NCBI RefSeq assembly: GCF_000711295.1
Contig: NZ_JOMJ01000003.1
Coordinates: 2,305,501-2,369,500, forward strand
Direction: 5' to 3'
Length of the DNA: 64,000 nt
From: Desulfohalovibrio reitneri
GTDB taxonomy: Bacteria; Desulfobacterota; Desulfovibrionia; Desulfovibrionales; Desulfovibrionaceae
Each line of letters starts with the position of its first letter. Position 1 is the stretch's first letter. A model generated the notes under the pieces. The model was given only the letters and a program-made list of their open reading frames with translations, ran no database searches and was not told where the DNA came from. Position numbers and translations under genes: made by a program. Below are positions 6,184 to 37,060 of this stretch, in pieces.

Positions 6184-6660
6184 GTGCGCTCCTGGCTCTT
6201 CTGGCTGGCTTTCACCGTGGCCGGGGTCTGGGCGCAGCACTTCGCCCCGGGCCTTGACTTCCTGGCCGCCGGGCTCATCGTCAGCCTGCAGGAACAGCGT
6301 CCGGGCAGGACCCTGTGGCTGGCCCTGGCCTGGGTGCTGGTGCAGGAGGGCATGGGCAGCCTGGCCTTCGGCACGGTCATCCTGCTCTACGCTTCGCTGG
6401 GCATCATGTACGCCGTCGGGCGGTGGCTGTTCGAGGCCAAGAATCTTCTTTTCGTCTGTCTGCTGGGCGTGGGCTACGCCCTGGTCATGGCCGGTCTGAA
6501 CCTGACCATGGCCACCCTCCAGGACGCGGTGGCGCCGGTGGAACGCCTGCTGCGCCTGGGGTTCATGCAGGCGGTGCTCACGCCGGTGGAATGGCTGGTC
6601 CTGTCCAGGCTGTTCGCCAAGTACGGGGAAAAACGGAGTGCTCGCACGGTTCCAATCTGA
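6184..6660 (+). CDS. mreD: Rod shape-determining protein MreD
   Basis: A 158-residue, strongly hydrophobic protein with about five predicted membrane segments, starting at GTG two bases after the mreC stop codon. Sequence conservation in MreD is low, so the call depends on size, topology and position between mreC and mrdA. The 3' end overlaps mrdA by 23 bp, implying translational coupling. Confidence 0.85.
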   Translation: MRSWLFWLAFTVAGVWAQHFAPGLDFLAAGLIVSLQEQRPGRTLWLALAWVLVQEGMGSLAFGTVILLYASLGIMYAVGRWLFEAKNLLFVCLLGVGYALVMAGLNLTMATLQDAVAPVERLLRLGFMQAVLTPVEWLVLSRLFAKYGEKRSARTVPI

Positions 6661-8530
6661 CGCCAACAGCGCGCCCCGCCAGGGGCTGGTGCTGCTGCAG
6701 GTCCTCATCGTGGGCCTGTTCTGCGTCTTCGCCCTGCGCTTGTGGTACCTGCAGGTGCACAAGGGCGCGTACTACGCGGAAAAGGCCATGGACAACCGCC
6801 TGCGGCAGGAGCCCATGTACGCCCCGCGCGGCCTCATCCGCGACCGCGACGGCCGTCTGACAGCGGTCAACGAACCAGCCTACGCCCTGGGACTGGTGCG
6901 CGAGGACGTGGAGGATCTTGAGGCCACCCTGGGGCAGGTCTCCAGGCTGACCGGCGTCCCCCGGGCCGAATTGCGGGAGAAGTACGACCGCCTCCGCCGC
7001 CGCGTGAAGCCCTTCGAGACCATGGTGCTGGCCCCGGACCTGGCTTTCGACACCCTGGCCCGCGTGGAGGCCCTGGCCCTGCGCTGGCCGGGCCTGGAGA
7101 TCGTGGTCCGGCCCAAGCGCCACTATCCCCAGGGCGAGCTGCTGGCCCACGTGCTGGGCTACGTGGCCGAGGCGGATGAAAAGGAACTCGAGGAGCGGCC
7201 GGAGCTGGACCTGGGCGACACCGTGGGCAAGCAGGGCCTGGAATACGTGCTGGAGGACCGGTTGCGCGGCACCAAGGGGCTGCGGCAGATGGAGGTGGAC
7301 GCCTCCGGCCGCGGGCTCAACGATCTGGTGGTCAAGCCGCCCCGGGCGGGCAGGAACCTGACCCTGTCCATCGACCTGGACCTGCAGCGCAAGGCCACCG
7401 ACCTGCTGCGTTCCGGCAACCACACCGGATCCGTGGTGGCCCTGGAACCGTTCTCCGGGCAGGTTCTGGCCCTGGTCACCAACCCCTCCTACAACAACAA
7501 CGATTTCGCCACCGGCCTTTCCACCAAACAGTGGGCCGAGCTGCGCGACGACCCCCGCCATCCCATGCAGAACCGGGTCATCCAGTCCGCCTACCCGCCG
7601 GGTTCGGTCTTTAAGCTGATCATGGCCGGGGCGGCCATGTGGGCGGAAAAGATGGACCCGGGGGAGACCGTCTACTGCCCGGGCCACTACCGCCTGGGGC
7701 GGCGGGTGTTCCGCTGCTGGAAGAAGCGGGGCCACGGCCACATGGACCTGGAGCAGGCCCTGGTGCAGTCCTGCGACGTCTATTTCTACGAATGGGGCCA
7801 CAGGCTGGGCGTGGACCGCATCGAGGAATTCGCCAAGGCCTGCGGCTTCGGCGAAAGGACTGGCATCTCCCTGCCGCATGAGCGCAGCGGACTCATTCCC
7901 TCGCGGGAGTGGAAGCGAAAACGGTTCGGCCAGCGCTGGCAGGGCGGCGAGAACCTGAACATGGCCATCGGCCAGGGCTACACCCTGGTCACGCCGCTGC
8001 AGGTGGCCCGCTTCCTGGGCGGGCTCATCAACGGCGGCGACCTGCTCCGCCCCAGGCTGCTGGCCGGGGGCGAGCCGGAAAAGAGCGGCTCCGTTCCGCT
8101 GGACAGGAGACAGCGCCTGGCCATCCTCGACATCATGCGGGACACGGTGGAGTCGCCGCGCGGCACCTGCCGCAGGCTGGAGATGGATGGCGCGGTCATC
8201 GGCGGCAAGACCGGCACAGCCCAGGTGGTGCGGCTCAAGGAGGAGGACCGGGGGGCGGAGACCGAGGAGATCAAGTACCGCTTCCGTGACCACTCCTGGG
8301 TGGCCACCTGGGGAATCAAGGACGGTCGGGCCGTGGTCATCGTGGTCATGGTGGAGCACGGCGGCCACGGCAGCGAGTCCTCCCTGCCCGTGGCCAAGGC
8401 CATGTACCGTTTTCTGTATGACGAGGGCGCGGCCATGGGGCCCACCTGGCCCTACGTGACCCCCGACCCCCCGGAGGTGCTGCGGGTGGATCGGGAAGAT
8501 CCGGATGAGGAAGCGGGAGGCCAGGGCTGA
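6638..8530 (+). CDS. mrdA: Penicillin-binding protein 2 (peptidoglycan DD-transpeptidase)
   Basis: Elongation-specific transpeptidase of 630 residues. It has an N-terminal membrane anchor (about residues 19-37), a dimerisation/pedestal domain starting with RGLIRDRDGRLTAVN, and a C-terminal transpeptidase domain carrying the three catalytic motifs: SVFK in PPGSVFKL, SCD in VQSCDVYFYEWG, and KTGT in GGKTGTAQVV. The start is GTG inside the end of mreD; its stop overlaps the rodA start (TGATG). It should act as a pair with RodA. Confidence 0.94.
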   Translation: MLARFQSDANSAPRQGLVLLQVLIVGLFCVFALRLWYLQVHKGAYYAEKAMDNRLRQEPMYAPRGLIRDRDGRLTAVNEPAYALGLVREDVEDLEATLGQVSRLTGVPRAELREKYDRLRRRVKPFETMVLAPDLAFDTLARVEALALRWPGLEIVVRPKRHYPQGELLAHVLGYVAEADEKELEERPELDLGDTVGKQGLEYVLEDRLRGTKGLRQMEVDASGRGLNDLVVKPPRAGRNLTLSIDLDLQRKATDLLRSGNHTGSVVALEPFSGQVLALVTNPSYNNNDFATGLSTKQWAELRDDPRHPMQNRVIQSAYPPGSVFKLIMAGAAMWAEKMDPGETVYCPGHYRLGRRVFRCWKKRGHGHMDLEQALVQSCDVYFYEWGHRLGVDRIEEFAKACGFGERTGISLPHERSGLIPSREWKRKRFGQRWQGGENLNMAIGQGYTLVTPLQVARFLGGLINGGDLLRPRLLAGGEPEKSGSVPLDRRQRLAILDIMRDTVESPRGTCRRLEMDGAVIGGKTGTAQVVRLKEEDRGAETEEIKYRFRDHSWVATWGIKDGRAVVIVVMVEHGGHGSESSLPVAKAMYRFLYDEGAAMGPTWPYVTPDPPEVLRVDREDPDEEAGGQG

Positions 8531-9645
8531 TGACTCCCATCGACCGCAGGCTGCTTCTGCACGTCAACTGGACGCTGCTGGGCCTGACCGCCGTGCTCTT
8601 CGGCCTGGGGGTGCTGAACCTCTATTCCGCCTCGGGCTTCCGGCTGGAGGCCGGGCTGTCCGTCTCCCCCTACTACCAGAAGCAGCTTGTCTGGGGGCTG
8701 GTGGGACTGGGCGGCATGCTGGCCTTCGTCATCCTCGACTACCGCCATCTGAAGGTGCTCTCCTGGCCGCTGTATTGGCTCACCGTGGCGCTGCTTCTGT
8801 ACGTGCTCTTCATGGGCAAGGTGGCGGGCGGCTCCCAGCGGTGGATATCCCTGGGCTTCATCAGCTTCCAGCCCTCGGAGATGGCCAAGATCGCCATTCT
8901 GGTCTTGGGGGCTCGCCTGCTGGCGCGCGAGGCCGGGCCGCTGGACTGGCGGGGGTTGTTCCGCATCCTCTGCTTCGGCATGCTGCCAGCGGCCCTCATC
9001 ATCCTGGAGCCGGACCTGGGTTCGGGGCTGAACATCCTCCTGCTTTTGGGCGGCATCATCCTCTTTCGCGGGCTTCTGCCGCGCATTGTCAAGACCGCGG
9101 TGGTGGTGCTGCCGGCCATCGTTCCCCTGGGCTGGTTCTTACTGCACGACTACCAGAAGCGGCGCATCCTGACCTTCCTCAACCCCTCGGAAGATCCCCT
9201 GGGCGCGGGCTACCACATCATCCAGTCGCAGATCGCCATCGGCTCCGGCCAACTCACGGGCAAGGGGTTCCTGGCGGGCACCCAGAGCCAGCTTCGCTTT
9301 CTGCCGGAGAAGCACACCGACTTCGCCGTGGCCGTGTTCGGGGAGGAATGGGGCTTCATCGGCACCATGGTCCTGCTGGGCCTGTTCTGCCTCTTCCTGT
9401 ACCGGATCTACATGGTGGCGCGCGACGCCAAGGACCGCTTCGGGGCCTTCCTGGTGGCCGGGGTGTTCTTTTATTTCTTCTGGCAAATCCTGATCAACAT
9501 GGGTATGGTCCTGGGCCTCATGCCGGTGGTCGGGATACCGTTGCCGTTCCTCAGTTACGGAGGCAGCGCCCTCTTCGTTAACTTCTGCCTCATCGGACTC
9601 GTCCTGAACGTTTCCATGCGGCGTTACGTCTTCAAGCAGAGTTGA
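8530..9645 (+). CDS. rodA: Rod shape-determining protein RodA (SEDS peptidoglycan glycosyltransferase)
   Basis: RodA polymerises glycan strands during lateral wall growth, with PBP2. The 371-residue polytopic protein has about ten membrane segments and SEDS signatures such as GGSQRWISLGFISFQPSEMAKI, EPDLGSGL, and PLPFLSYGGSALFVN near the C-terminus. The ATG overlaps the mrdA stop by one base. Confidence 0.95.
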   Translation: MTPIDRRLLLHVNWTLLGLTAVLFGLGVLNLYSASGFRLEAGLSVSPYYQKQLVWGLVGLGGMLAFVILDYRHLKVLSWPLYWLTVALLLYVLFMGKVAGGSQRWISLGFISFQPSEMAKIAILVLGARLLAREAGPLDWRGLFRILCFGMLPAALIILEPDLGSGLNILLLLGGIILFRGLLPRIVKTAVVVLPAIVPLGWFLLHDYQKRRILTFLNPSEDPLGAGYHIIQSQIAIGSGQLTGKGFLAGTQSQLRFLPEKHTDFAVAVFGEEWGFIGTMVLLGLFCLFLYRIYMVARDAKDRFGAFLVAGVFFYFFWQILINMGMVLGLMPVVGIPLPFLSYGGSALFVNFCLIGLVLNVSMRRYVFKQS

Positions 9646-9670
9646 GAAAGCAATGAGGAGACGCGGGAAG

Positions 9671-10042
9671 ATGGCCAAAGACGAGATCAACGCCTTTCTC
9701 GGGGCGGGGACTTCCTATCAGGGCAAGCTCAACTTCCAGGGCTCGGTGCGCATCGACGGCGCCTTCCAGGGCGAAGTGACCAGCGAGGGGACGCTCGTGG
9801 TCGGCCAGGAGGCGGACGTGGAGGGCACCATCGACGTGGGGCAGCTGGTTCTCTCCGGCCGCATGAACGGCGAGGTGCGAGCCCGCGAGCGGGTGGTGCT
9901 GCACCGTACCGCCAACCTCCACGGCACCCTCATCACTCCGGTGCTGGTCATGGAAGAGGGCGCGGTCATAGACGGCCGCATCACCATGACCTCGGACAGC
10001 GCCGAGGCCCTCCCCTCCGAGCAGACCTCCATCGAGTCCTGA
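9671..10042 (+). CDS. Bactofilin family cytoskeletal protein
   Basis: About 123 residues. After a short leader (MAKDEINAFLGAG) comes the repetitive beta-helix core of bactofilins, with repeating G-x-(V/L)-x-(V/I) turns such as FQGSVRIDGAFQGEV, EGTIDVGQLVLSG and NLHGTLITPVLVMEEGAVIDG, then a polar Ser/Glu tail. Bactofilins self-assemble into non-polar filaments and often cooperate with wall enzymes. I prefer the ATG at 9671, preceded by AGGAGACGCGGGAAG; an in-frame ATG at 9653 would add six residues. It is 25 bp behind rodA, so it probably belongs to the elongasome operon. Confidence 0.88.
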   Translation: MAKDEINAFLGAGTSYQGKLNFQGSVRIDGAFQGEVTSEGTLVVGQEADVEGTIDVGQLVLSGRMNGEVRARERVVLHRTANLHGTLITPVLVMEEGAVIDGRITMTSDSAEALPSEQTSIES

Positions 10043-10074
10043 ACCCGTCGGCCGGGAGTCCCCGGCAGACGGGA
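10043..10074 (+). terminator. Possible terminator hairpin after bactofilin gene
   Basis: Nested stems CCCGTC/GACGGG and GCCGGG/CCCGGC form a compact hairpin directly after the stop region. There is no good T tract after it, so termination is uncertain. Confidence 0.35.
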
Positions 10075-10156
10075 AACAGCGGCGTGAATTTTGGCACAAA
10101 CCGCGCCGCGCAAGGCTTCCGGAAGTCCTGGGAGCCGTTTTAGCGGCAAAAAGCCG

Positions 10157-10185
10157 TTGACGCCCGGTCGCAAATTGTTTAAAGC
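10157..10185 (+). promoter_or_regulatory. Predicted sigma70-type promoter of the ATP synthase operon
   Basis: TTGACG (10157-10162), a 17-base spacer and TAAAGC (10180-10185) lie about 45 bp upstream of the first atp start codon. The -35 box is near consensus; the -10 box matches only partly. Confidence 0.5.
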
Positions 10186-10230
10186 CGCACTGGCTTTGGT
10201 CAAAAATTCACAACCTCCGCGGGGGCGAGC

Positions 10231-10647
10231 ATGATCGATCTCGACATTACCATCTTTATCCAGCTCGTGAACTTTCTCATCATGTGGTTCGTTCTGGACC
10301 TCATCCTCTTTAGGCCGATCCGGGGCATCATCCGGAAACGCAACGAGCACATGGAACAGCAGATGGACACCGTGGAGAAGTTCAGCGGCCAGGCCACGGA
10401 GAAGCTGAAGAACTACGAGGCCGCTCTCGCCGAGGCGCGCACAGCGGGCGCCCAGGAGCGGGACCGGCTCAAGGAAGAAGGGCTGGGCAAGGAGCAGGAA
10501 CTTGTGGGCGCCGCCCAGAAGGACGCCTCCGCAAAGGTCCAGGCCTCCCGGCAGGAGATCAGCGCCGAGGCCGACAAGGCCAAGGAGACGCTGAAGGCGG
10601 ATGTTCGCAAGCTGGCGGAAGCGGCCACGGCGAAAATTCTCGGCTGA
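10231..10647 (+). CDS. F0F1 ATP synthase subunit b' (AtpF-like)
   Basis: A 138-residue peripheral-stalk subunit: one N-terminal membrane helix (about residues 5-25) with the LFRPIRGIIRKRN segment typical of b-type subunits, then a long charged coiled coil. It precedes a second b subunit, so the stalk is probably a b/b' heterodimer. It lacks a signal peptide, unlike the following gene. First gene of the atp operon. Confidence 0.9.
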   Translation: MIDLDITIFIQLVNFLIMWFVLDLILFRPIRGIIRKRNEHMEQQMDTVEKFSGQATEKLKNYEAALAEARTAGAQERDRLKEEGLGKEQELVGAAQKDASAKVQASRQEISAEADKAKETLKADVRKLAEAATAKILG

Positions 10648-10667
10648 ACCATCGAGGAGGGACCATC

Positions 10668-11243
10668 TTGAACCGCACGCGCACAATCGCAATTTCGCTG
10701 GCCATCGTCCTGCTGGGCGCCGGCGTGGCCTTCGCCGCCGAGGGCGGCGGAGGGGGAGACCACGGCCTGCCCTGGGCCAACTTCGGCTTCCGGGTCCTGA
10801 ACCTGGTCATCGTCGTCGGCATCATTTGGAAGTTCGGCGGCAAGGCCATCCGCGACCTCTTCCTGGGCCGCCGCGACAAGATCAAGAGTGAGCTGGACGA
10901 CCTGGAGACCCGCCGCAAGGACGCCGAAGGCAAGCTGCGGGACGTCGAGCAGAGCATCGCCAGCATCGAGCAGGAGAAGGAAGATATTCTTTCCGAGTCC
11001 CGCCGCCAGGGCGAAGCGCTGAAGCAGGCCATCATCGAGGAGGCCGAGCGCAAGGCCGAGCAGATTCGCACCTCCGCCGAGGCCAGCGTGGCCGCCGAGC
11101 GCCGCATGGTCCTGCAGGACCTGCGCGCCGAGGTGGCCGACATGGTCGTCGAGGCCGCCGAGTCGATGCTCAAGGAAAAGCTGACCGAAGAAGACCATCG
11201 CAAGCTGGTCGATGACTATCTCAAGAAGGTGGTGCTCAATTGA
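10668..11243 (+). CDS. atpF: F0F1 ATP synthase subunit b
   Basis: The 191-residue b subunit begins with TTG, preceded by GAGGAGGG. The N-terminus looks like a cleavable signal (LAIVLLGAGVAFAAEG), followed by a membrane helix (NLVIVVGIIWKFGG) and a long Lys/Glu/Ala coiled coil ending in a delta-binding region. A b subunit with a signal-like leader before the anchor is a known feature of Desulfovibrio-type ATP synthases. The stop overlaps the atpH start. Confidence 0.92.
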   Translation: MNRTRTIAISLAIVLLGAGVAFAAEGGGGGDHGLPWANFGFRVLNLVIVVGIIWKFGGKAIRDLFLGRRDKIKSELDDLETRRKDAEGKLRDVEQSIASIEQEKEDILSESRRQGEALKQAIIEEAERKAEQIRTSAEASVAAERRMVLQDLRAEVADMVVEAAESMLKEKLTEEDHRKLVDDYLKKVVLN

Positions 11244-11791
11244 CCGAGAACATCGTTGCCCGACGGTACGCCAAGGCCCTCTTCTCGTTGGGCGCCCGCA
11301 AGGGCGACAAGGAGCTTGAGGCCATCGGCAAGGACCTGGCCTCGGTGGCGGAAACCTTCGCCGCCGCACCCGATCTGATCCGGACCTTCCGCAACCCCCT
11401 GTTCAGCGCCCAGGAAAAGTCGGCCGTGGCCGCCAAGGTCCTGGACAAGCTGGGGGTCAAGGGCACGGTCCGCAACTTTGTCCTGCTCCTCGGCGACAAG
11501 GACCGCCTTGGCTACCTGCCCGGGATCGAGCGGGTCTTCTCCGAGCTCCTCGACGAGCGCCAGGGTGTCCTGCGCGGCAGCCTGGTGACGGCCGTGGACA
11601 TTCCCGAGGATACGCGCGAGTCGCTCAAGAAGCGGCTCGAGGAACAGACCAAGGCCACGCTGGTTTTGGGTTACGAGGTTGATCCCGACATCCTGGGCGG
11701 CGTTGTGCTCAAGGTCGGCGACAAGGTTTTGGATGCGAGTTTGCGCGCGCAGCTCTCCATGCTGAAAGAAAACATGACAAGGGGTGAGTAG
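11240..11791 (+). CDS. atpH: F0F1 ATP synthase subunit delta
   Basis: This 183-residue subunit connects F1 to the peripheral stalk. It begins at TTG overlapping the atpF stop by 4 bp. Family features include the N-terminal [13 protein letters not shown] and the C-terminal [26 protein letters not shown], the usual delta signature. Confidence 0.93.
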
Positions 11792-11795
11792 GGCC

Positions 11796-13304
11796 ATGCA
11801 GATCAAAGCGGAAGAAATCTCTCAGATCATCGAGTCCCAGATCGAGAATTACGAGTCCCAGGTCGAGATGAGCGAGACCGGGACCGTTCTGAGCATCGGT
11901 GACGGTATCGCCCGCGTCTACGGCGTCCGGAACGCCATGGCCATGGAGCTCCTCGAGTTCCCCGGCGGCGTGAAGGGTATGGTTCTCAACCTCGAGGAGG
12001 ACAACGTCGGCGTGGCCATGTTGGGTGACGACACCGACATCAAGGAAGGCGACCCGGTCAAGCGCACCGGTGACATCTTCTCCGTCCCCGTCGGCGAGGG
12101 CGTGTTGGGCCGCGTGGTCAACCCCATCGGCGAGCCCATCGACGGCCAGGGCCCCATCGAGGCCGCCGAGACCAAGGAGGTCGAGGTTGTCGCTCCCGGC
12201 ATCGTCGCCCGCAAGTCGGTCCACGAGCCCATGTACACGGGCCTCAAGGCCATCGACGCCATGACCCCCATCGGCCGCGGCCAGCGCGAGCTGGTCATCG
12301 GCGACCGCCAGGTCGGCAAGACGGCCATCGGCATCGACGCCATCCTGGCCCAGAAGAACACCGACGTGAAGTGCTTCTACGTGGCCATCGGCCAGAAGAA
12401 AGCCTCTGTCGCCCTGGTGGCCGACGTCCTGCGCCAGCACGGCGCTCTGGAGTACACCACCATCATCTCGGCCACCGCTTCGGAGCCCGCCTCCCAGCAG
12501 TTTATCGCCGCCTACGCCGGCACGGCCATGGCCGAGTACTTCCGCGACCGCGGGCAGCACGCCCTGATCATCTACGACGACCTTTCCAAGCAGGCCGTCG
12601 CCTACCGCCAGATGTCGCTGCTGCTGCGCCGCCCCCCGGGACGCGAGGCCTTTCCCGGCGACGTTTTCTACCTCCACTCCCGCCTGCTGGAGCGCTCCTG
12701 CAAGCTCAACGACGAACTGGGCGCCGGCTCCCTGACCTCGCTGCCCATCATCGAAACCCAGGCGGGCGACGTGTCGGCTTACATCCCGACCAACGTCATC
12801 TCCATCACCGACGGCCAAGTCTACCTGGAGCCCAACCTCTTCTACGCGGGCGTCCGGCCGGCCATTAACGTCGGCCTCTCGGTCTCCCGAGTGGGCGGCG
12901 CGGCTCAGATCAAGGCCATGAAGCAGGTCGCGGGCACGCTCCGTCTTGACCTCGCCCAGTACCGCGAGCTGGCCGCCTTCGCCCAGTTCGGCTCCGACCT
13001 GGACAAGGCCACCCAGCAGAAGCTCGCCCGCGGCGAGCGCATGGTCGAGCTGCTGAAGCAGCCGCAGTACCAGCCCTTCCCCGTCGAGGAGCAGGTCGCC
13101 TCCATCTTCGCCGCCGGTCGCGGCTACATGGACGACATCCCGGTCGAGGCGGTGAACAAGTTCGAGACCGAATTCCTCGAGTTCATGCGCAACGCCAAGT
13201 CCGACATCCTCAAGGACATCAAGGAGAAGGAGAAGCTGGACGACGACCTGGAAGGCCGCCTGAAGGCCGCCGTGGAGGAGTTCAAGAAGGGCTTCAGCGC
13301 CTAA
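11796..13304 (+). CDS. atpA: F0F1 ATP synthase subunit alpha
   Basis: Non-catalytic nucleotide-binding subunit of F1, 502 residues. The P-loop GDRQVGKT, the [25 protein letters not shown] segment and the [17 protein letters not shown] signature are present. I chose the ATG at 11796 ([12 protein letters not shown]), the usual family N-terminus; an in-frame GTG at 11784 overlaps atpH and would add four residues. Confidence 0.96.
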
Positions 13305-31488: not shown

Positions 31489-32805
31489 TTAGGACTTGTG
31501 GTTTTCGGGGCCTTTGCGGGCGTAGTGGGCGGTCAGGCCGAAGCCCGCCAGCCCCAGCACCGCGTACAGGGCGCACATGACGATCATGGAGAACCAGATC
31601 TGGCCCGGGACCACGGCTGGCGAGTGGGCGTCGGCGGTGCGCATCATGCCGTACACGATCCACGGCTGGCGTCCCACCTCGGCCACCACCCAGCCCGCCT
31701 GGATGGCGATGAAGGGCAGCGGTATGGCCCATATGAGCGATCGCAGCAGCCACGGTTTTTCCGTGAGGCGGTTGCGGTACAGCCAGGCCGCGCCCATCAG
31801 CAGGATGAACAGCCCGCCCAGGCCGACCATGATGCGGAAGGAGTAGAAGGTGATGGCCACGGGCGGCCGGTCCTCCTTGGGGTAGTCCAGCAGGCCTTTC
31901 ACTTCGGCCGAGGGGTCGTTGAAGGCCAGCAGGGAGAGCAGGGAGGGGATTCTGATGGCTTCCACCAGGTTCCGCTCGTTCTCCTCGTCCGGAATGACCA
32001 GCAGGTGCATGGCCGCGGGCTTGGAGGTCTCCCAGTGGGACTCCATGGCCGCCAGCTTGGCTGGCTGCTTGTGGGCCACCTCGTTGCCGTGGATGTGGCC
32101 CTGTCCGGCCAGGAAGAGGGCGGCGATGAGGCCCAGGGGCAGGGCCATCTTGAAGGAGCGGGTGAAGAAGTCGATGTGCTGCTTGCGCAGCAAGTGGTAG
32201 GCGGAGATGCCCATGACGAACATGGCAGAAAGCATGTAGGCCCCGGCGATGGTGTGGAAGAACTGCTGCCAGGCGAAGGAGTTGGTCAGCACGGCGCCGA
32301 AGTCCGCCAGCTCGGCGCGGCCGTTGCGCATCACGTAGCCAACGGGGTTCTGCATGAAGCCGTTGGCCAGGATGATCCAGATGGCCGAGAGGTTGGAGCC
32401 CAGGAAGACCAGCCACATGACCATCATGTGGGCCTTCTTGGAGAGTTTCTTCCAGCCGAAGACCCAGACGCCGATGAAGGTGGATTCCAGGAAGAAGGCG
32501 GCCGTGGCCTCAATGGCCAGCAGCGAGCCGAAGATGTCGCCCACGTAGGCGGAGTAGCGGGACCAGTTGGTGCCGAACTGGAACTCCAGGGTGATGCCGG
32601 TGACCACGCCCACGGCGAAGAGGATGAGGAATATCTTTCCCCAGAACTTGGTCATGCGCAGCCAGGTCTCGTCCCCGGTGCGCACGTACTTGGTCTCGTA
32701 AATGGCCACCAGCAGGGAAAGCCCCAGGGTGACCGGCACGAACAGAAAGTGGAACATGGTGGCTGCGGCGAACTGCAGCCGTGACAAAAGCAACGCTTCT
32801 TCCAT
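31489..32805 (-). CDS. cydA: Cytochrome bd oxidase subunit I
   Basis: 438-residue subunit carrying the quinol site and hemes. Conserved parts include LSRLQFAAATMFHFLFVPVTLGLS (heme ligand His), VGDIFGSLLAIEATAAFFLESTFIGVW, GQGHIHGNEVAHKQPAKLAAMESHW, and GWVVAEVGRQPWIVYG. The quinol loop is the short type. ATG at 32805 is preceded by an AGGGGG run; a candidate -10 box TATAAC lies about 20 bp upstream on the minus strand. Head of the cydAB operon, divergent from the AT-rich island gene. Confidence 0.95.
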   Translation of the reverse strand: MEEALLLSRLQFAAATMFHFLFVPVTLGLSLLVAIYETKYVRTGDETWLRMTKFWGKIFLILFAVGVVTGITLEFQFGTNWSRYSAYVGDIFGSLLAIEATAAFFLESTFIGVWVFGWKKLSKKAHMMVMWLVFLGSNLSAIWIILANGFMQNPVGYVMRNGRAELADFGAVLTNSFAWQQFFHTIAGAYMLSAMFVMGISAYHLLRKQHIDFFTRSFKMALPLGLIAALFLAGQGHIHGNEVAHKQPAKLAAMESHWETSKPAAMHLLVIPDEENERNLVEAIRIPSLLSLLAFNDPSAEVKGLLDYPKEDRPPVAITFYSFRIMVGLGGLFILLMGAAWLYRNRLTEKPWLLRSLIWAIPLPFIAIQAGWVVAEVGRQPWIVYGMMRTADAHSPAVVPGQIWFSMIVMCALYAVLGLAGFGLTAHYARKGPENHKS

Positions 32806-32993
32806 TTGGCGCCCCCTGAATGACGTTATAGCGGACTTTGTCCACCGAAATACCCGCCCGCCGAAAAAATGGCAACCGGGGCGGGGAAATATGTGGGGGG
32901 TGGGTAGGGAAGAGGGAACAAACCAGCTTAAAGTAAGGCAACATTCAAAAAGCGGTCAAACCGGATGAGCTTCATTGGAAGTAAAGTATAGTA

Positions 32994-33022
32994 TTGACTA
33001 TCATTGTAAATCCATATAGCTA
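32994..33022 (+). promoter_or_regulatory. Predicted promoter of the AT-rich island gene
   Basis: TTGACT (32994-32999), a 17-base spacer and TAGCTA (33017-33022), or TATAGC with 15-base spacing, lie upstream of the 33061 gene. A nearly identical motif TTAAAGTAA(A/G)G flanks the region at about 32930 and 33038. Confidence 0.45.
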
Positions 33023-33024
33023 GG

Positions 33025-33037
33025 CCACTTTAAGTGG
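33025..33037. promoter_or_regulatory. Dyad at the predicted transcription start (operator candidate)
   Basis: CCACTT-T-AAGTGG is a perfect 13-bp dyad placed just after the predicted -10 box, where a repressor could bind. It could also fold as a small hairpin at the transcript 5' end. Confidence 0.35.
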
Positions 33038-33060
33038 TTAAAGTAAAGGGTGAGGTGCAA

Positions 33061-34317
33061 GTGTCAATTCCATTTTCTGCTCGGTTTGTCTTGAATCGTC
33101 TTGGGACAGCCCTCGGATGTACTTCTACATTTCTGACTCGTCATTCTGGAGCATTGAAAAGAAGTAATGGTGTTTATGAACTGGAAAGATGGGATGTAGT
33201 AATTCGATTTTCCAGAAAAGTGGATTTCACTACAAATGAGAAGAAGTTTATTAGAATAGTAATAGATAGCTACGATAGGCTGGATAAGCAATGGAAAACG
33301 AGAGGTGTTGCCCACCAGTATATGCAAACTGCAATCACCTCGTCTGTTTTTGACATAGGTGTATCTCGGTTTGTTTCTGATTCCAGGAGAAACTTTTTAA
33401 ATATCCACCGCCTAATTCAATACTTCAAGTTGCTGAGCTATGAAAAATACGAAGGAGAACAGGTAAAAATCGGTTGCTTAGTGACACCTTCAAGGGACAT
33501 TGAACAAAAAGAATACAAAATAGGGAATACAAAATATGAACTTGTACCTGCATCAAGTAGCGTTTCCATAAATCAAGAGTTAATTGGAGACAGCGCTTTT
33601 TGGAGGTATGTTAATGGCGTTGATTCATTCTATATGTGTGATACTAGCTTAAATGTTTATGGTTTTTTGAACGTTCTTTCTAGCGAATACGATAATTTTA
33701 GAAATATTACGAGCTCTTGCATTGAGGATTATGTTGATGATGATGGGGAGATTTTGTTTTATATTGGGGTTACTGGGAGTGCAGATTTGGAATTATTTGT
33801 TGACGATAGTTTTCGATTATTGTTTAGGAAAGGGCGTTGGTACTTTATCGACTGTGATTTGATCAATTCTGTTGTATCACCAGGATACAGCACTATTGAA
33901 CCTTGGAAGGTTCTGTATTCTATGTCAAAGATAAAAAAGGGGACAGTTATTCTGATTGTGGATGATAATAACGCTGATTTAAAAGACCTTGTTGTTCGAC
34001 ACACATCAAGTGAGACAGGAATGCGTAGCGCTATGAGGGGGTGTGTTGTCGGCAATGATCTAAAACGTTTGTGTGAAACTGGTGAGATGATGAGGATACT
34101 GTCAACGGATGGAATGACTATTTTGGATAATAGGTTTAGTAAAATAATGGATTTCAATGCGATTGTAAACACTGGACTGTCTAACTCTGAATCAGGTGGC
34201 GGTGGACGAACAAGTGCAGCCATTGCTGGATCGGTTTACGGCACTACTATAAAGGTTTCAGAGGATGGCCCTATAACAATATATAAAGACCAAGATCAAA
34301 TTTACAAAGTTGGATAA
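33061..34317 (+). CDS. Orphan protein with C-terminal diadenylate-cyclase (DisA_N)-like domain
   Basis: About 418 residues, no signal peptide or clear membrane helix. The last ~85 residues follow the diadenylate cyclase pattern: MMRILSTDGMTILDN aligns with the DGA motif region of DisA, and GGGGRTSAAIAGSV then TTIKVSEDGPITIYK aligns with its GTRHR-A region and following strands. The key residues differ (DGM for DGA, GGGRTSA for GTRHR-A), so cyclase activity is doubtful. The segment FRLLFRKGRWYFIDCD before it fits predicted sensor (DACN-type) regions that precede such domains. I prefer GTG 33061, after AAAGGGTGAG; GTG 33034 is an alternative. Base composition is strikingly AT-rich compared with all neighbours, indicating transfer. 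No partner gene is present; an ISL3 element follows. Confidence 0.55.
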   Translation: MSIPFSARFVLNRLGTALGCTSTFLTRHSGALKRSNGVYELERWDVVIRFSRKVDFTTNEKKFIRIVIDSYDRLDKQWKTRGVAHQYMQTAITSSVFDIGVSRFVSDSRRNFLNIHRLIQYFKLLSYEKYEGEQVKIGCLVTPSRDIEQKEYKIGNTKYELVPASSSVSINQELIGDSAFWRYVNGVDSFYMCDTSLNVYGFLNVLSSEYDNFRNITSSCIEDYVDDDGEILFYIGVTGSADLELFVDDSFRLLFRKGRWYFIDCDLINSVVSPGYSTIEPWKVLYSMSKIKKGTVILIVDDNNADLKDLVVRHTSSETGMRSAMRGCVVGNDLKRLCETGEMMRILSTDGMTILDNRFSKIMDFNAIVNTGLSNSESGGGGRTSAAIAGSVYGTTIKVSEDGPITIYKDQDQIYKVG

Positions 34318-34366
34318 ACCTGTGGGCATATAGGTGATTTCGATCTTTCGTACGTTTTAAGAAAGA

Positions 34367-35698
34367 GGTTCTTCCGGAATTGTCGTGGGTAGCAGCCTGA
34401 GGTAGTCCTCTGTTCTAGAGGAGACATTGCTCATGAGGGACATCGATTTCTATGCTCAGATTCTTGGCATTGACCACCCCTGGCATGTGGATGACGTGAA
34501 GCTCCAGACTGGGGCTGGGCGAGTGGATGTGTGGATCGATCATGAGCCTGGCGCTCTTTGGTCTTGCCCAGAGTGCGGGCGAGAGTTGGCTTGCCGGGAT
34601 CATGCCGAAGAACGGACATGGAGACATCTAGATACCTGCCAGTTCAAGACATTTCTTCATGCACGTATTCCACGAGTTAACTGTCCTGATCACGGCGTAC
34701 GCCAAGCACAGGTCCCCTGGGCCGCTCCCCATTCTCGTTTCACCCTGCTCATGGAGCGCATGGCCATTGACGTGATTACGGCCTGTTCGACCATCGAAGG
34801 TGCACGCAGGCTGTTGCGTATTTCCTGGGACGAGACCTGGGGGATCATGGAACGAGCCGTCAAAAGAGGCTTGAGCCGCAAGGAACAGCGCAATATCCAC
34901 TACCTCGGGGTGGACGAGAAGGCTTTCCGCAAGGGACACAAGTACATGACCGTCGTCTGCGATCTGATGAGGGGCACAGTTGAGCATGTTGCTGAAGATC
35001 GCCGAACGGCGAGCCTCGAGGCGTATTATCAAAGCCTGAGTAGCGAGCAGCTGGAAGCAGTGCGGGCCGTGAGCATGGACATGTGGCAGCCGTATTTTTC
35101 GGCCACTATGAAGTGGATCCCTGAGGCAAGCCGGAAAATCGTCTTTGACCGTTTCCACGTCATGCAACACGTGGGGAAAGCGGTGGACACTGTCCGGCGT
35201 CAGGAACACAAGGCCCTGATGGCCGAAGGGGAGTCAATCCTCAAGGGCACCAGATACCTGTGGCTTTACGGCGAAAGCCGTCTGCCGGATAAGCACAGAC
35301 CTCGGTTCGATGACCTCAAGCAGGCCAACCTGAAGACGGCCAAAGCCTGGGCCATGAAGGAAAGCCTGCAGGATCTGTGGGGCTACATGAGCCCTGGCTG
35401 GGCAAAGAGGTTCCTGGAGAAATGGTGCGGTTGGGCCACGCGATCCCGGATCACGCCGATGAAGAAGGTGGCCCAGACCTTGAGAGCTCACATGGACAAC
35501 GTGGTGACCTTTTGCCGGCATCGAATCACCAACGCCGTGGCCGAGGGACTGAACAGCAAGATCATGGCAATCAAACGCCGAGCTTGCGGCTACAGGAACA
35601 AAGAGCACTTCAAGACGGCGATCTACTTCTTCTGTGGTGGATTGGACCTCTATCCGGCCTGCAAAACCGGAGCCACCCACTGAAATCCCGGAAGGACC
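34367..35698 (+). mobile_element. ISL3-family insertion sequence, about 1.33 kb
   Basis: Imperfect terminal inverted repeats (left GGTTCTTCCGGAATTGTC, right end complement GGTCCTTCCGGGATTTCAG) enclose one transposase. An 8-bp target duplication AAGAAAGA occupies 34359-34366 and 35699-35706, the ISL3 hallmark. The element looks intact and recent. Confidence 0.9.
34433..35683 (+). CDS. ISL3-family transposase
   Basis: About 416 residues. An N-terminal zinc-finger-like CPECGRELACRDH and CPDHG are followed by a DDE domain: YLGVDEKAFRKGHKYMTVV (first Asp), VSMDMWQPYFSATMKWIPEA and VFDRFHVMQHV (second Asp), and ITNAVAEGLNSKIMAIKRRACGYRN (Glu). ATG 34433 has AGAGGAG upstream; TTG at 34427 is an alternative. 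High GC, unlike the preceding AT-rich gene. Confidence 0.93.
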   Translation: MRDIDFYAQILGIDHPWHVDDVKLQTGAGRVDVWIDHEPGALWSCPECGRELACRDHAEERTWRHLDTCQFKTFLHARIPRVNCPDHGVRQAQVPWAAPHSRFTLLMERMAIDVITACSTIEGARRLLRISWDETWGIMERAVKRGLSRKEQRNIHYLGVDEKAFRKGHKYMTVVCDLMRGTVEHVAEDRRTASLEAYYQSLSSEQLEAVRAVSMDMWQPYFSATMKWIPEASRKIVFDRFHVMQHVGKAVDTVRRQEHKALMAEGESILKGTRYLWLYGESRLPDKHRPRFDDLKQANLKTAKAWAMKESLQDLWGYMSPGWAKRFLEKWCGWATRSRITPMKKVAQTLRAHMDNVVTFCRHRITNAVAEGLNSKIMAIKRRACGYRNKEHFKTAIYFFCGGLDLYPACKTGATH

Positions 35699-35738
35699 AA
35701 GAAAGAAGGCCGCACCCCCGGTGGATGCGGCCTTTCTT
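35699..35738 (-). terminator. Terminator of the dfx-rubredoxin-roo operon
   Basis: A stem GGCCGCA/TGCGGCC flanked by A-rich and T-rich arms (AAGAAAGAA and TTTCTT) lies 27 bp beyond the roo stop; on the minus strand it ends in a TTCTTTCTT tract. The ISL3 element inserted exactly at its outer edge. Confidence 0.75.
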
Positions 35739-35764: not shown

Positions 35765-36991
35765 CTACCCCTCGAAGCCCGCGATCTTTTCCTTGAGGGA
35801 CTGGGCGATCTTTTTGCCGTATTCGAAGCAGGTTTTGGCGTCGTCGTGGGTGGGTTGGTACTGGACCTTCACGGGGTCGTCCACCACGTCCATGTTCATG
35901 GACTCGGCCCATTCGCGCAGCACCTTGACCGACTCGCCGGACCAGCCGAAGGAGCCGAACACGCCGGCCACCTTGTTCTGGGGCTTAAGCCCCTTCATGT
36001 ACTGCATCATCCCGGCCACGCTGGGCAGGATGCCGTTGTTGTGCGTGGGCGAGCCCATGCAGACGGCGCCCGAGCGCAGCAGCTCGGTCATGACGGTGGA
36101 GTGGTGGTGCTGCTTGAGGTGCATGACGCGCACGTCCACGCCCTCCTCCTTGAGGCCGTCGGCGATGGAGTGGGCCATCTGCTCGGTGGCGTACCACATG
36201 GTGTCGTAGATGATGAGGGCGCGCTTGGTCGGCTTGGCCGTGGCGTACTCGCGGTAGCGGTCCATGACCCAGGCGCAGTCCTCCTTGGTGCGGTAGATCA
36301 GCCCGTGGTCCGGGGCGATCATGTCCACGTCCAGGTTCAGCTCCGCCAGCTTGTCCAGGGTCTTGATGACGATGGGGGAGTAGGGCTGGACGATGTTGGC
36401 GAAGTACTCGCCGAGGAGGTGCTCCAGGGTGGGGCGGTCCACCTCGTCCACGAAGCGCTCGGAGGTGGCCCAGTTCTGGCCGAAGGCGTCCGAGGAGATG
36501 AGCAGCTTGGAGCCGGGCAGGTAGGTGGCCATGTTGTCCGGCCAGTGCAGCATGCGCGTTTCCAGGAACTGCATGGTGTGGCCGCCCAGGTCCACCTCGG
36601 TGCCGGACTCGCAGACCTCGATGGGCCAGTCCTCCTTGCCCTTGTGGTGGATGCGCGCCAGGGACTTCACGCCCATCTTGGAGACGTAGATCTTCTCCGG
36701 CTTCATGCGCTCCACGGCTTCCACCAGGCAGCCGGAGTGGTCCGGCTCCAGGTGGTTGACCACCATGTAGTCCACGTTCTCCAGGCCGCCGGCCACGTTG
36801 GCCACGTTGCAGAAATATTCGTCCTTGTGGGACTCCTTCACCGTGTCGAAGACGGTGATCTTGTCGCCCTTGAGGCAGTAGGCGTTGTAGGTGGTGCCCC
36901 TGGGGGAGATGGCGTAGCCGTGGAAATCGTAGGATTCCCAGTCCACCGCGCCGACCCAAAACACGCCTGGTTTGATTTCGACAGGACGCAT
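35765..36991 (-). CDS. roo: Rubredoxin:oxygen oxidoreductase (flavodiiron protein)
   Basis: Reduces oxygen (or NO) to water (or N2O) with electrons from rubredoxin. About 408 residues: an N-terminal metallo-beta-lactamase domain with diiron ligands in NHLEPDHSGC, RMLHWPDNM, SSDAFG and APDHG, and a C-terminal flavodoxin domain starting KRALIIYDTMWYATEQMA with SPTHNNG and GSFGWSGESV. ATG 36991 (MRPVEIKPGVFWVGAVDW) is the family start; a longer frame would run back through the intergenic gap. Third gene of the oxygen-defence operon. Confidence 0.95.
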   Translation of the reverse strand: MRPVEIKPGVFWVGAVDWESYDFHGYAISPRGTTYNAYCLKGDKITVFDTVKESHKDEYFCNVANVAGGLENVDYMVVNHLEPDHSGCLVEAVERMKPEKIYVSKMGVKSLARIHHKGKEDWPIEVCESGTEVDLGGHTMQFLETRMLHWPDNMATYLPGSKLLISSDAFGQNWATSERFVDEVDRPTLEHLLGEYFANIVQPYSPIVIKTLDKLAELNLDVDMIAPDHGLIYRTKEDCAWVMDRYREYATAKPTKRALIIYDTMWYATEQMAHSIADGLKEEGVDVRVMHLKQHHHSTVMTELLRSGAVCMGSPTHNNGILPSVAGMMQYMKGLKPQNKVAGVFGSFGWSGESVKVLREWAESMNMDVVDDPVKVQYQPTHDDAKTCFEYGKKIAQSLKEKIAGFEG

Positions 36992-37060
36992 GAACAAACC
37001 TCGCTTGGAATTGGCTGGAGAAAACGGGCGGCCGGGCCGGACCCGGCCGCCGGACGGCAT

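Follow-up and report, generated by a model that had tools for sequence, protein, structure and literature searches.

The window, a stretch of 64,000 nucleotides from Desulfohalovibrio reitneri (contig NZ_JOMJ01000003.1, positions 2,305,501 to 2,369,500), contains an open reading frame of the diadenylate cyclase (DAC) family at 33061-34317 on the forward strand. The frame is open and complete, encodes 418 residues from a GTG start, and has no internal stop. The ORF listing begins earlier in the same frame, at GTG 33034, for a product of 427 residues. On sequence grounds GTG 33061 is the preferred start, because the start of L142, a relative with 51% identity, aligns there (MQIPFSA versus (V)SIPFSA in the window protein) and because GAGG occurs ahead of it at 33052-33055. 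An earlier note had singled this gene out as AT-rich in a GC-rich window, and so it is: its GC is 0.379 and its GC3 0.327 against 0.656 for the window, and the lowest of the window's 1-kb GC bins, 0.369, is 33001-34000. A 60-bp GC profile places the gene in an AT-rich island at about 32940-34366. A tRNA scan found none, Rfam gave a single match that falls under its gathering score, and a promoter scan found 6 against 3.7 expected, a difference too small to be informative.

To the left of the island is a cydA-like gene (31489-32805, reverse strand). To the right are an ISL3 element (34367-35698, forward strand) and a roo-like flavodiiron gene (35765-37060, reverse strand); the cyd and roo names are read from sequence. 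These are the neighbors given in the earlier note, an ISL3 transposase on the right and cydBA on the opposite strand on the left, and its description of a lone gene also holds, as no recognized effector adjoins the DAC-like gene among the ORFs of the window. The two outer genes, cydA and roo, occur adjacent and on the same strand in 9 of 19 other cydA loci of relatives, with about 67-841 bp between them; their spacing in the window is 2959 bp. By tblastn, a DAC gene appears in 0 of the 19 loci, which extend 1.5 kb past cydA. The DAC-like gene interrupts the roo-cydA order of related bacteria.

Members of the family are sparsely distributed. A search with the single protein finds them in 14 of 395 genomes of the phylum, and a profile search finds them in 18 of 288 genomes and 8 of 44 genera of the bacterial family, with one match at the limit of E 0.001; both counts include the D. 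reitneri genome itself. Sequences of the window type occur in 5 of 307 genomes of the class, a sixth match being distant. A scan of contigs returned 94 relatives, and 78 of the loci were retained. Their titles point for the most part to Geobacter-like organisms and further Desulfuromonadales, while Alkaliphilus, Mucilaginibacter and Treponema contribute one member each; such a scan with the window protein as single query returned no relatives. Viral contigs yielded no relative to the window protein, to profile A4 or to profile A3, and one (L180) to the profile of the other branch of the family. Phages searched with the window protein gave none, as did E. coli genomes searched at the DNA level with the gene of the Agrobacterium vitis relative L119. 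The host genome, searched with the other-branch profile, returns the window gene only. A second, weaker DAC match to an ORF of about 480-600 residues recurs in many of the relatives' genomes.

Relatives that match the window protein along its full length share 36-51% identity with it. The six proteins of the window type group together (support 100/99) in a tree of 46 sequences; the deep branching order is unsure, because long branches meet and six rows have uneven composition. The match between the profiles of the window-type and other branches extends across 334 columns (E 2e-23), so the architecture is common to both. Compared with the DNA around them, four of the six window-type genes are far richer in AT, and the other two differ little. 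That the gene is rare and inserted is well supported, and its base composition and distribution speak for horizontal acquisition.

The assignment to the DAC family rests on relatives and structure prediction, since searches of the window protein itself against Pfam, NCBIfam and PADLOC give no hit, even at E 10. Model PF02457 matches 8 of 14 family members, with a best E of 1e-4; two members score 12.3 and 18.9 bits, against a gathering score of 27. With 48 relatives as input, AlphaFold2 gives a model of mean pLDDT 85.5 and pTM 0.86. Residues 274-418 (33880-34314, forward strand) are almost certainly a DAC domain, judging from this model. Foldseek against PDB gives 45 chains at E 0.001 or better, rows 1-49 are all DAC proteins, and the best match is DisA (3c1y, E 3e-5). 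VIA gives Z of 12.0-14.3 across 40 rows, mostly over 121-131 residues inside 266-418. The structural check proposed in the earlier note thus predicts a DAC fold, with every confident PDB match a DAC protein; the DisA_N-like alignment described there was right as to identity and too short in extent, the domain being about 145 residues rather than about 85. A sequence-only profile of the DAC region finds nothing significant in PDB, with DisA at E 1.1 amid unrelated chains, and the viral structure library contains nothing at E 0.001. Profile A3 matches the host's CdaA by hhalign with E 2e-4, but over columns other than the active site.

Active-site positions were mapped by aligning the host CdaA with 22 DAC regions of the family, using the CdaA ligand list given in PMC7288161. 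In that mapping Asp71, Gly101 and Arg103 of CdaA correspond to D350, G381 and R383 of the window protein, and Ser122, Glu123 and Glu124 to S400, E401 and D402. Three forward-strand motifs carry these residues: DGM (D350-M352, 34108-34116) in place of DGA, GGGR (G380-R383, 34198-34209) in place of the GTR in GTRHR, and KVSEDG (K398-G403, 34252-34269) in place of (V/I)SEE. DGM, GGGGRTSAA and KVSEDGPITIYK are all present, in agreement with the earlier note, and its description of a divergent active site is apt. D350 and G351 are kept while Ala becomes Met; GxRHRxA is reduced to its Gly and first Arg (GGGRTSAA); VSED keeps the Ser and has Asp at the metal position. Across the family, D350, R383, S400 and D402 are invariant in 22 of 22 aligned members, down to about 20% identity, and the 12 invariant columns include these and G351, G381, G382, K398 and G403. 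The position of Thr102 is Gly in all 22, and that of His104 is variable, with His lost in most members. Among the 22, DGM or DGL is found in the branch of the window protein and DGA in the other; the further member L206 has DGC.

By this alignment, retention of the ribose, phosphate and metal ligands in the DAC domain is well supported, and the phosphate site reads as remodelled under selection. An active enzyme is somewhat more likely than not. The protein might instead be a catalytically dead DAC, acting as a sensor or sponge for nucleotides or cyclic dinucleotides and signaling by protein contact, as could be suggested by the missing Thr and mostly missing His of GTRHR, the change of SEE to SxD, and the weak Pfam scores. 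We consider this unlikely, given that D350, R383 and S400, together with an acidic residue at the metal position, are retained throughout a set of 22 members that diverge to about 20% identity, and that DGA persists in one branch.

The region upstream of the DAC domain had been read in the earlier note as sensor-like, with DACN sensors as the precedent. No Pfam DACN model matches it, while the control protein L016 from the same genome (403-1932 of host contig C3), a DACND-DACNH-DAC protein, does match. The other-branch profile aligns with L016 in register across the DAC, at a probability of 0.7%. Residues 1-273, modelled alone, reach pLDDT 83.8 and pTM 0.84. The first 17 VIA rows for this model are all DACs, matching residues of about 104-260 (33370-33840, forward strand) with Z 6.6-8.5; one example aligns 119 residues to 3c1y at 3.0 A with Z 8.0. 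Since Z under about 8 can reflect a common arrangement, this signal is borderline. Foldseek likewise places DisA in its top row at E 0.024 and probability 0.80; none of its rows reaches E 0.001. When the two halves of the protein are compared as profiles, the hairpin VTGSADLELF pairs with VSEDGPITIY; the score of 20.0 is reached by 0 of 60 column shuffles (mean 11.0, maximum 17.2), and hhalign gives the match a probability of 2.7% over 20-21 columns. Taken with the predicted structure and this weak repeat signal, the segment is probably a degenerate DAC domain in tandem with the catalytic one. Two DAC domains pair face to face in DAC enzymes (PMC7288161), and here a single chain could provide the two partners. 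Later VIA rows cover residues 1-84 (33061-33312, forward strand), with Z no higher than 5.5 and phytochrome GAF rows at about 5; this N-terminal piece is weakly GAF-like, and a Z of about 5 is too weak for a GAF fold to be claimed.

Outside the Geobacterales-type set, the neighborhoods of 29 loci, that of the window among them, were inspected; six rpoBC-linked loci were counted once, leaving 24 distinct loci, two of them at contig ends. A defense-type gene directly adjoins the DAC gene in 7 of the 24. In L118 and L143, from two genera, the DAC gene lies between two hsdM genes of a type I restriction locus (6649-12144 and 7373-11643, respectively), with ORFs that overlap or are separated by 3-8 bases. 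The L118 cassette is followed by hsdS, hsdR and a UvrD-type helicase; hsdR was not seen at L143. A KAP NTPase scored as PDC-S20 adjoins the DAC gene in two phage-like regions, L145 (7163-9964) and L180 (7581-10674). The L180 contig comes from IMG/VR; in L145 the surrounding genes are, by our reading, phage-like. The two KAP proteins share 32% identity over 277 residues; the DAC of L145 is of the window type, whereas that of L180 was found by the other-branch profile and is outside the tree. L154 has Vsr beside the DAC gene, followed by a cytosine methyltransferase and mza genes, and L092 has AbiJ/HEPN before it and GmrSD after it. In L119, on the A. vitis plasmid pRvVAT039d (NZ_AP023285.1), the DAC gene is flanked by Cap15 and, on its opposite side, by a patatin-containing type II CBASS. 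The Cap15-type gene (6436-7074), annotated as hypothetical and divergent from the DAC-like gene, encodes a cyclic dinucleotide receptor by PF18153 (E 7e-15). That model matches in 0 of 27 genomes of host and carriers; control genomes are likewise without a match, so the zero is no evidence of absence.

Three more loci are counted apart from the seven. An hsdR-like gene lies about 3.7 kb off in L206, and a cytosine methyltransferase and a Vsr-like gene lie about 6.4 kb off in L117, all read from sequence. In L036, within the Geobacterales-type set, the DAC-like gene is immediately preceded by a type I system. The L206 gene (7552-8772) comes from another family of the same order, has GC 0.28 and DGC for DGA, and is near three AT-rich unknown genes as well as the hsdR-like gene.

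The vicinity of the window gene holds no recognized defense gene. In 5 of the 6 window-type cases, namely the window and four of the five relatives nearest to it, no such gene lies directly beside the DAC gene. No S-2TMbeta-type effector was seen among the window ORFs, and an adjacent CD-NTase with effector, absent from the ORFs neighboring the window gene, is present in L119 alone. The earlier note suggested that homologs be searched for neighboring effectors; some relatives have adjacent defense genes and in one case a cyclic-dinucleotide receptor, and none was recognized beside the window gene itself.

A small matched contrast over 6.5-kb flanks found a recognized system in 4 of 12 loci and 1 of 13 control stretches (p 0.16, not significant), counting among the matches listed, which cover 25 of 194 families for the test set and 25 of 43 for the control. 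Systems at the test loci were assigned by us, and control matches to QatA, QatB and QatC were counted, untraced, as one stretch. The test set began as 126 neighbor proteins at the 12 loci; 9 were dropped and 3 better calls for the window were added, giving 120 scanned. Controls comprised 189 proteins in 18 stretches of our choosing, about one and two thirds of the contig away, with the scan covering the 138 proteins of the first 13 stretches and leaving out the last 5. Genes were called with a crude tool that is error-prone in GC-rich DNA. Control stretches also have single matches to generic models such as RtcR, DruE, BrxH and PDC-S20.

The Geobacterales-type set has no constant partner; the commonest other family occurs in 27 of 77 loci, at varying positions. 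With the flanks of many of these loci cut by contig ends, nifK or nifEN is counted near the DAC-like gene in 10 of 77, and any of eight markers in 13 of 77. The loci with nifK and/or nifEN are L026, L036, L038, L042, L044, L048, L055, L056, L061 and L066, with variable insertions between. A nif-linked function as the general role was rejected, the linkage being confined to these 10 of 77 loci and to one subgroup. Members of one genus (L147-L150, L155, L156) keep the DAC-like gene just upstream of rpoB-rpoC, where it is preceded by a large gene that looks sensor-like; these names are read from sequence.

Such contexts would fit an active cyclase, acquired horizontally, that makes c-di-AMP or a variant for ordinary stress or metabolic signaling outside defense. 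The nif and rpoBC linkages, the want of a constant partner, the solitary window gene and a host that has its own CdaA all speak for that reading. The last point carries little information as regards host CdaA or dependence on c-di-AMP, because PF02457 is found in 57 of 59 relatives as well as in 26 of 26 carriers tested. We regard ordinary signaling as doubtful, given that the window's branch is rare, patchy, AT-rich and moved between sites, and that relatives are tightly coupled with restriction, KAP, Abi and CBASS genes.

Our best explanation, to which we give a probability of roughly 0.45, is that the gene was acquired horizontally and encodes a nucleotide cyclase that stands alone, belongs to a divergent DAC family and is used in anti-phage or anti-plasmid signaling. 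Because some distant cousins lie inside or beside anti-phage genes, the protein is a possible uncharacterized maker of an immunity signal; for a defense role as such we put the chances at about even. We infer a mechanism in which tandem pairing, catalysis, product, cue, effector and defense would fit together as follows. A single chain would comprise an N-terminal cap, a probable degenerate DAC, and a DAC that keeps the ligands for ribose, phosphate and metal. As DAC enzymes require two DAC domains facing each other, the degenerate one might act as an internal partner, or else as a site where a nucleotide regulates the protein; the chain would then be an asymmetric counterpart of the DisA/CdaA pair. 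An infection cue would alter production of a cyclic dinucleotide, which would act either on an effector whose gene lies elsewhere or via the host c-di-AMP network. For the lone window gene, an infection-responsive cyclase is the favored form of this explanation.

A more specific version, by analogy, is rather improbable. The single-chain, asymmetric pseudo-DAC/DAC cyclase would serve immunity and in some hosts act as a Panoptes-like guard with DAC replacing mCpol, while lone copies would act via effectors elsewhere or the c-di-AMP network. The Cap15-DAC-CBASS order on the A. vitis plasmid suggests such a guard, in which the DAC might restrain (or switch on) the Cap15-like membrane effector beside CBASS. 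A decaying or chance ORF without function would agree with the single copy and the lack of a family model match, and was rejected as very improbable, since relatives 36-51% identical span the full length, 12 of 12 family-invariant DAC positions are kept, and the frame is open.

Least probable of all, to the point of being negligible, is that the DAC-like gene is cargo of the neighboring ISL3 element, from which it is separated by 49 bp: the gene is outside the IS ends, the IS has its own 8-bp target duplication (AAGAAAGA, at 34359-34366 and 35699-35706), and the remaining nine genome copies are without the gene. The element, identified by a family match of its transposase, is present 10 times in the genome, with 8 matches at 100% and 2 at 97%. 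Matches extend past the IS ends at the window place alone, so ISL3 represents a separate insertion, independent of the DAC-like gene.

DAC enzymes are known mainly as makers of c-di-AMP for cell physiology, and a divergent DAC family of this kind would raise the question of products beyond canonical c-di-AMP. A remodelled phosphate site, a probable degenerate partner and placement in defense loci would together widen the range of folds in nucleotide immunity. Genes of this kind are easily overlooked, as the window protein escapes the models of Pfam, NCBIfam and PADLOC; the repeated sites in restriction operons, in phage-like regions and beside CBASS make them candidates for direct assay. Among the papers listed for DACN names, for DACs in conflict or defense, and for tandem or degenerate DACs, we recognized none on the divergent family; Galperin 2023 and Burroughs 2015 may already describe it.

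Among known systems, DisA, CdaA and CdaS (PF02457) resemble the window protein in the fold of its C-terminal domain and in the GALI-like Gly, the DG, the Arg, the Ser and the acidic residue at the metal position. The window protein differs in having no Pfam match, in the changes of GTRHR to GGGRx and of SEE to SED, and in a chain that carries a probable second, degenerate DAC. DACs with DACN sensors, such as L016, likewise have a divergent DAC preceded by an N-terminal region that is soluble, whereas no DACN model matches the window protein and the DAC parts match very weakly by profile. DS-2 is described as a CBASS locus that includes a DAC, and defense there depends on the predicted catalytic residues of this DAC; 15 of 30 homologs of that DAC lie with CBASS, and the same source states that no DAC had been validated in phage defense before it (PMC13092281). 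The window gene has no CBASS beside it, and the comparison with DS-2 is by description rather than by DAC homology; the likeness is to the relative L119, where a DAC is likewise beside patatin and CD-NTase genes. In Panoptes, as described, the cyclic-dinucleotide synthase mCpol restrains a Cap15-like membrane effector and guards CBASS (PMC12657218, PMC12657230). The family has a DAC instead of the mCpol that Panoptes pairs with an S-2TMbeta/Cap15-like effector, and L119 is the sole relative so arranged. There, as in Panoptes, a synthase-type gene lies beside Cap15 and next to a CBASS of the patatin/E1-E2 type.
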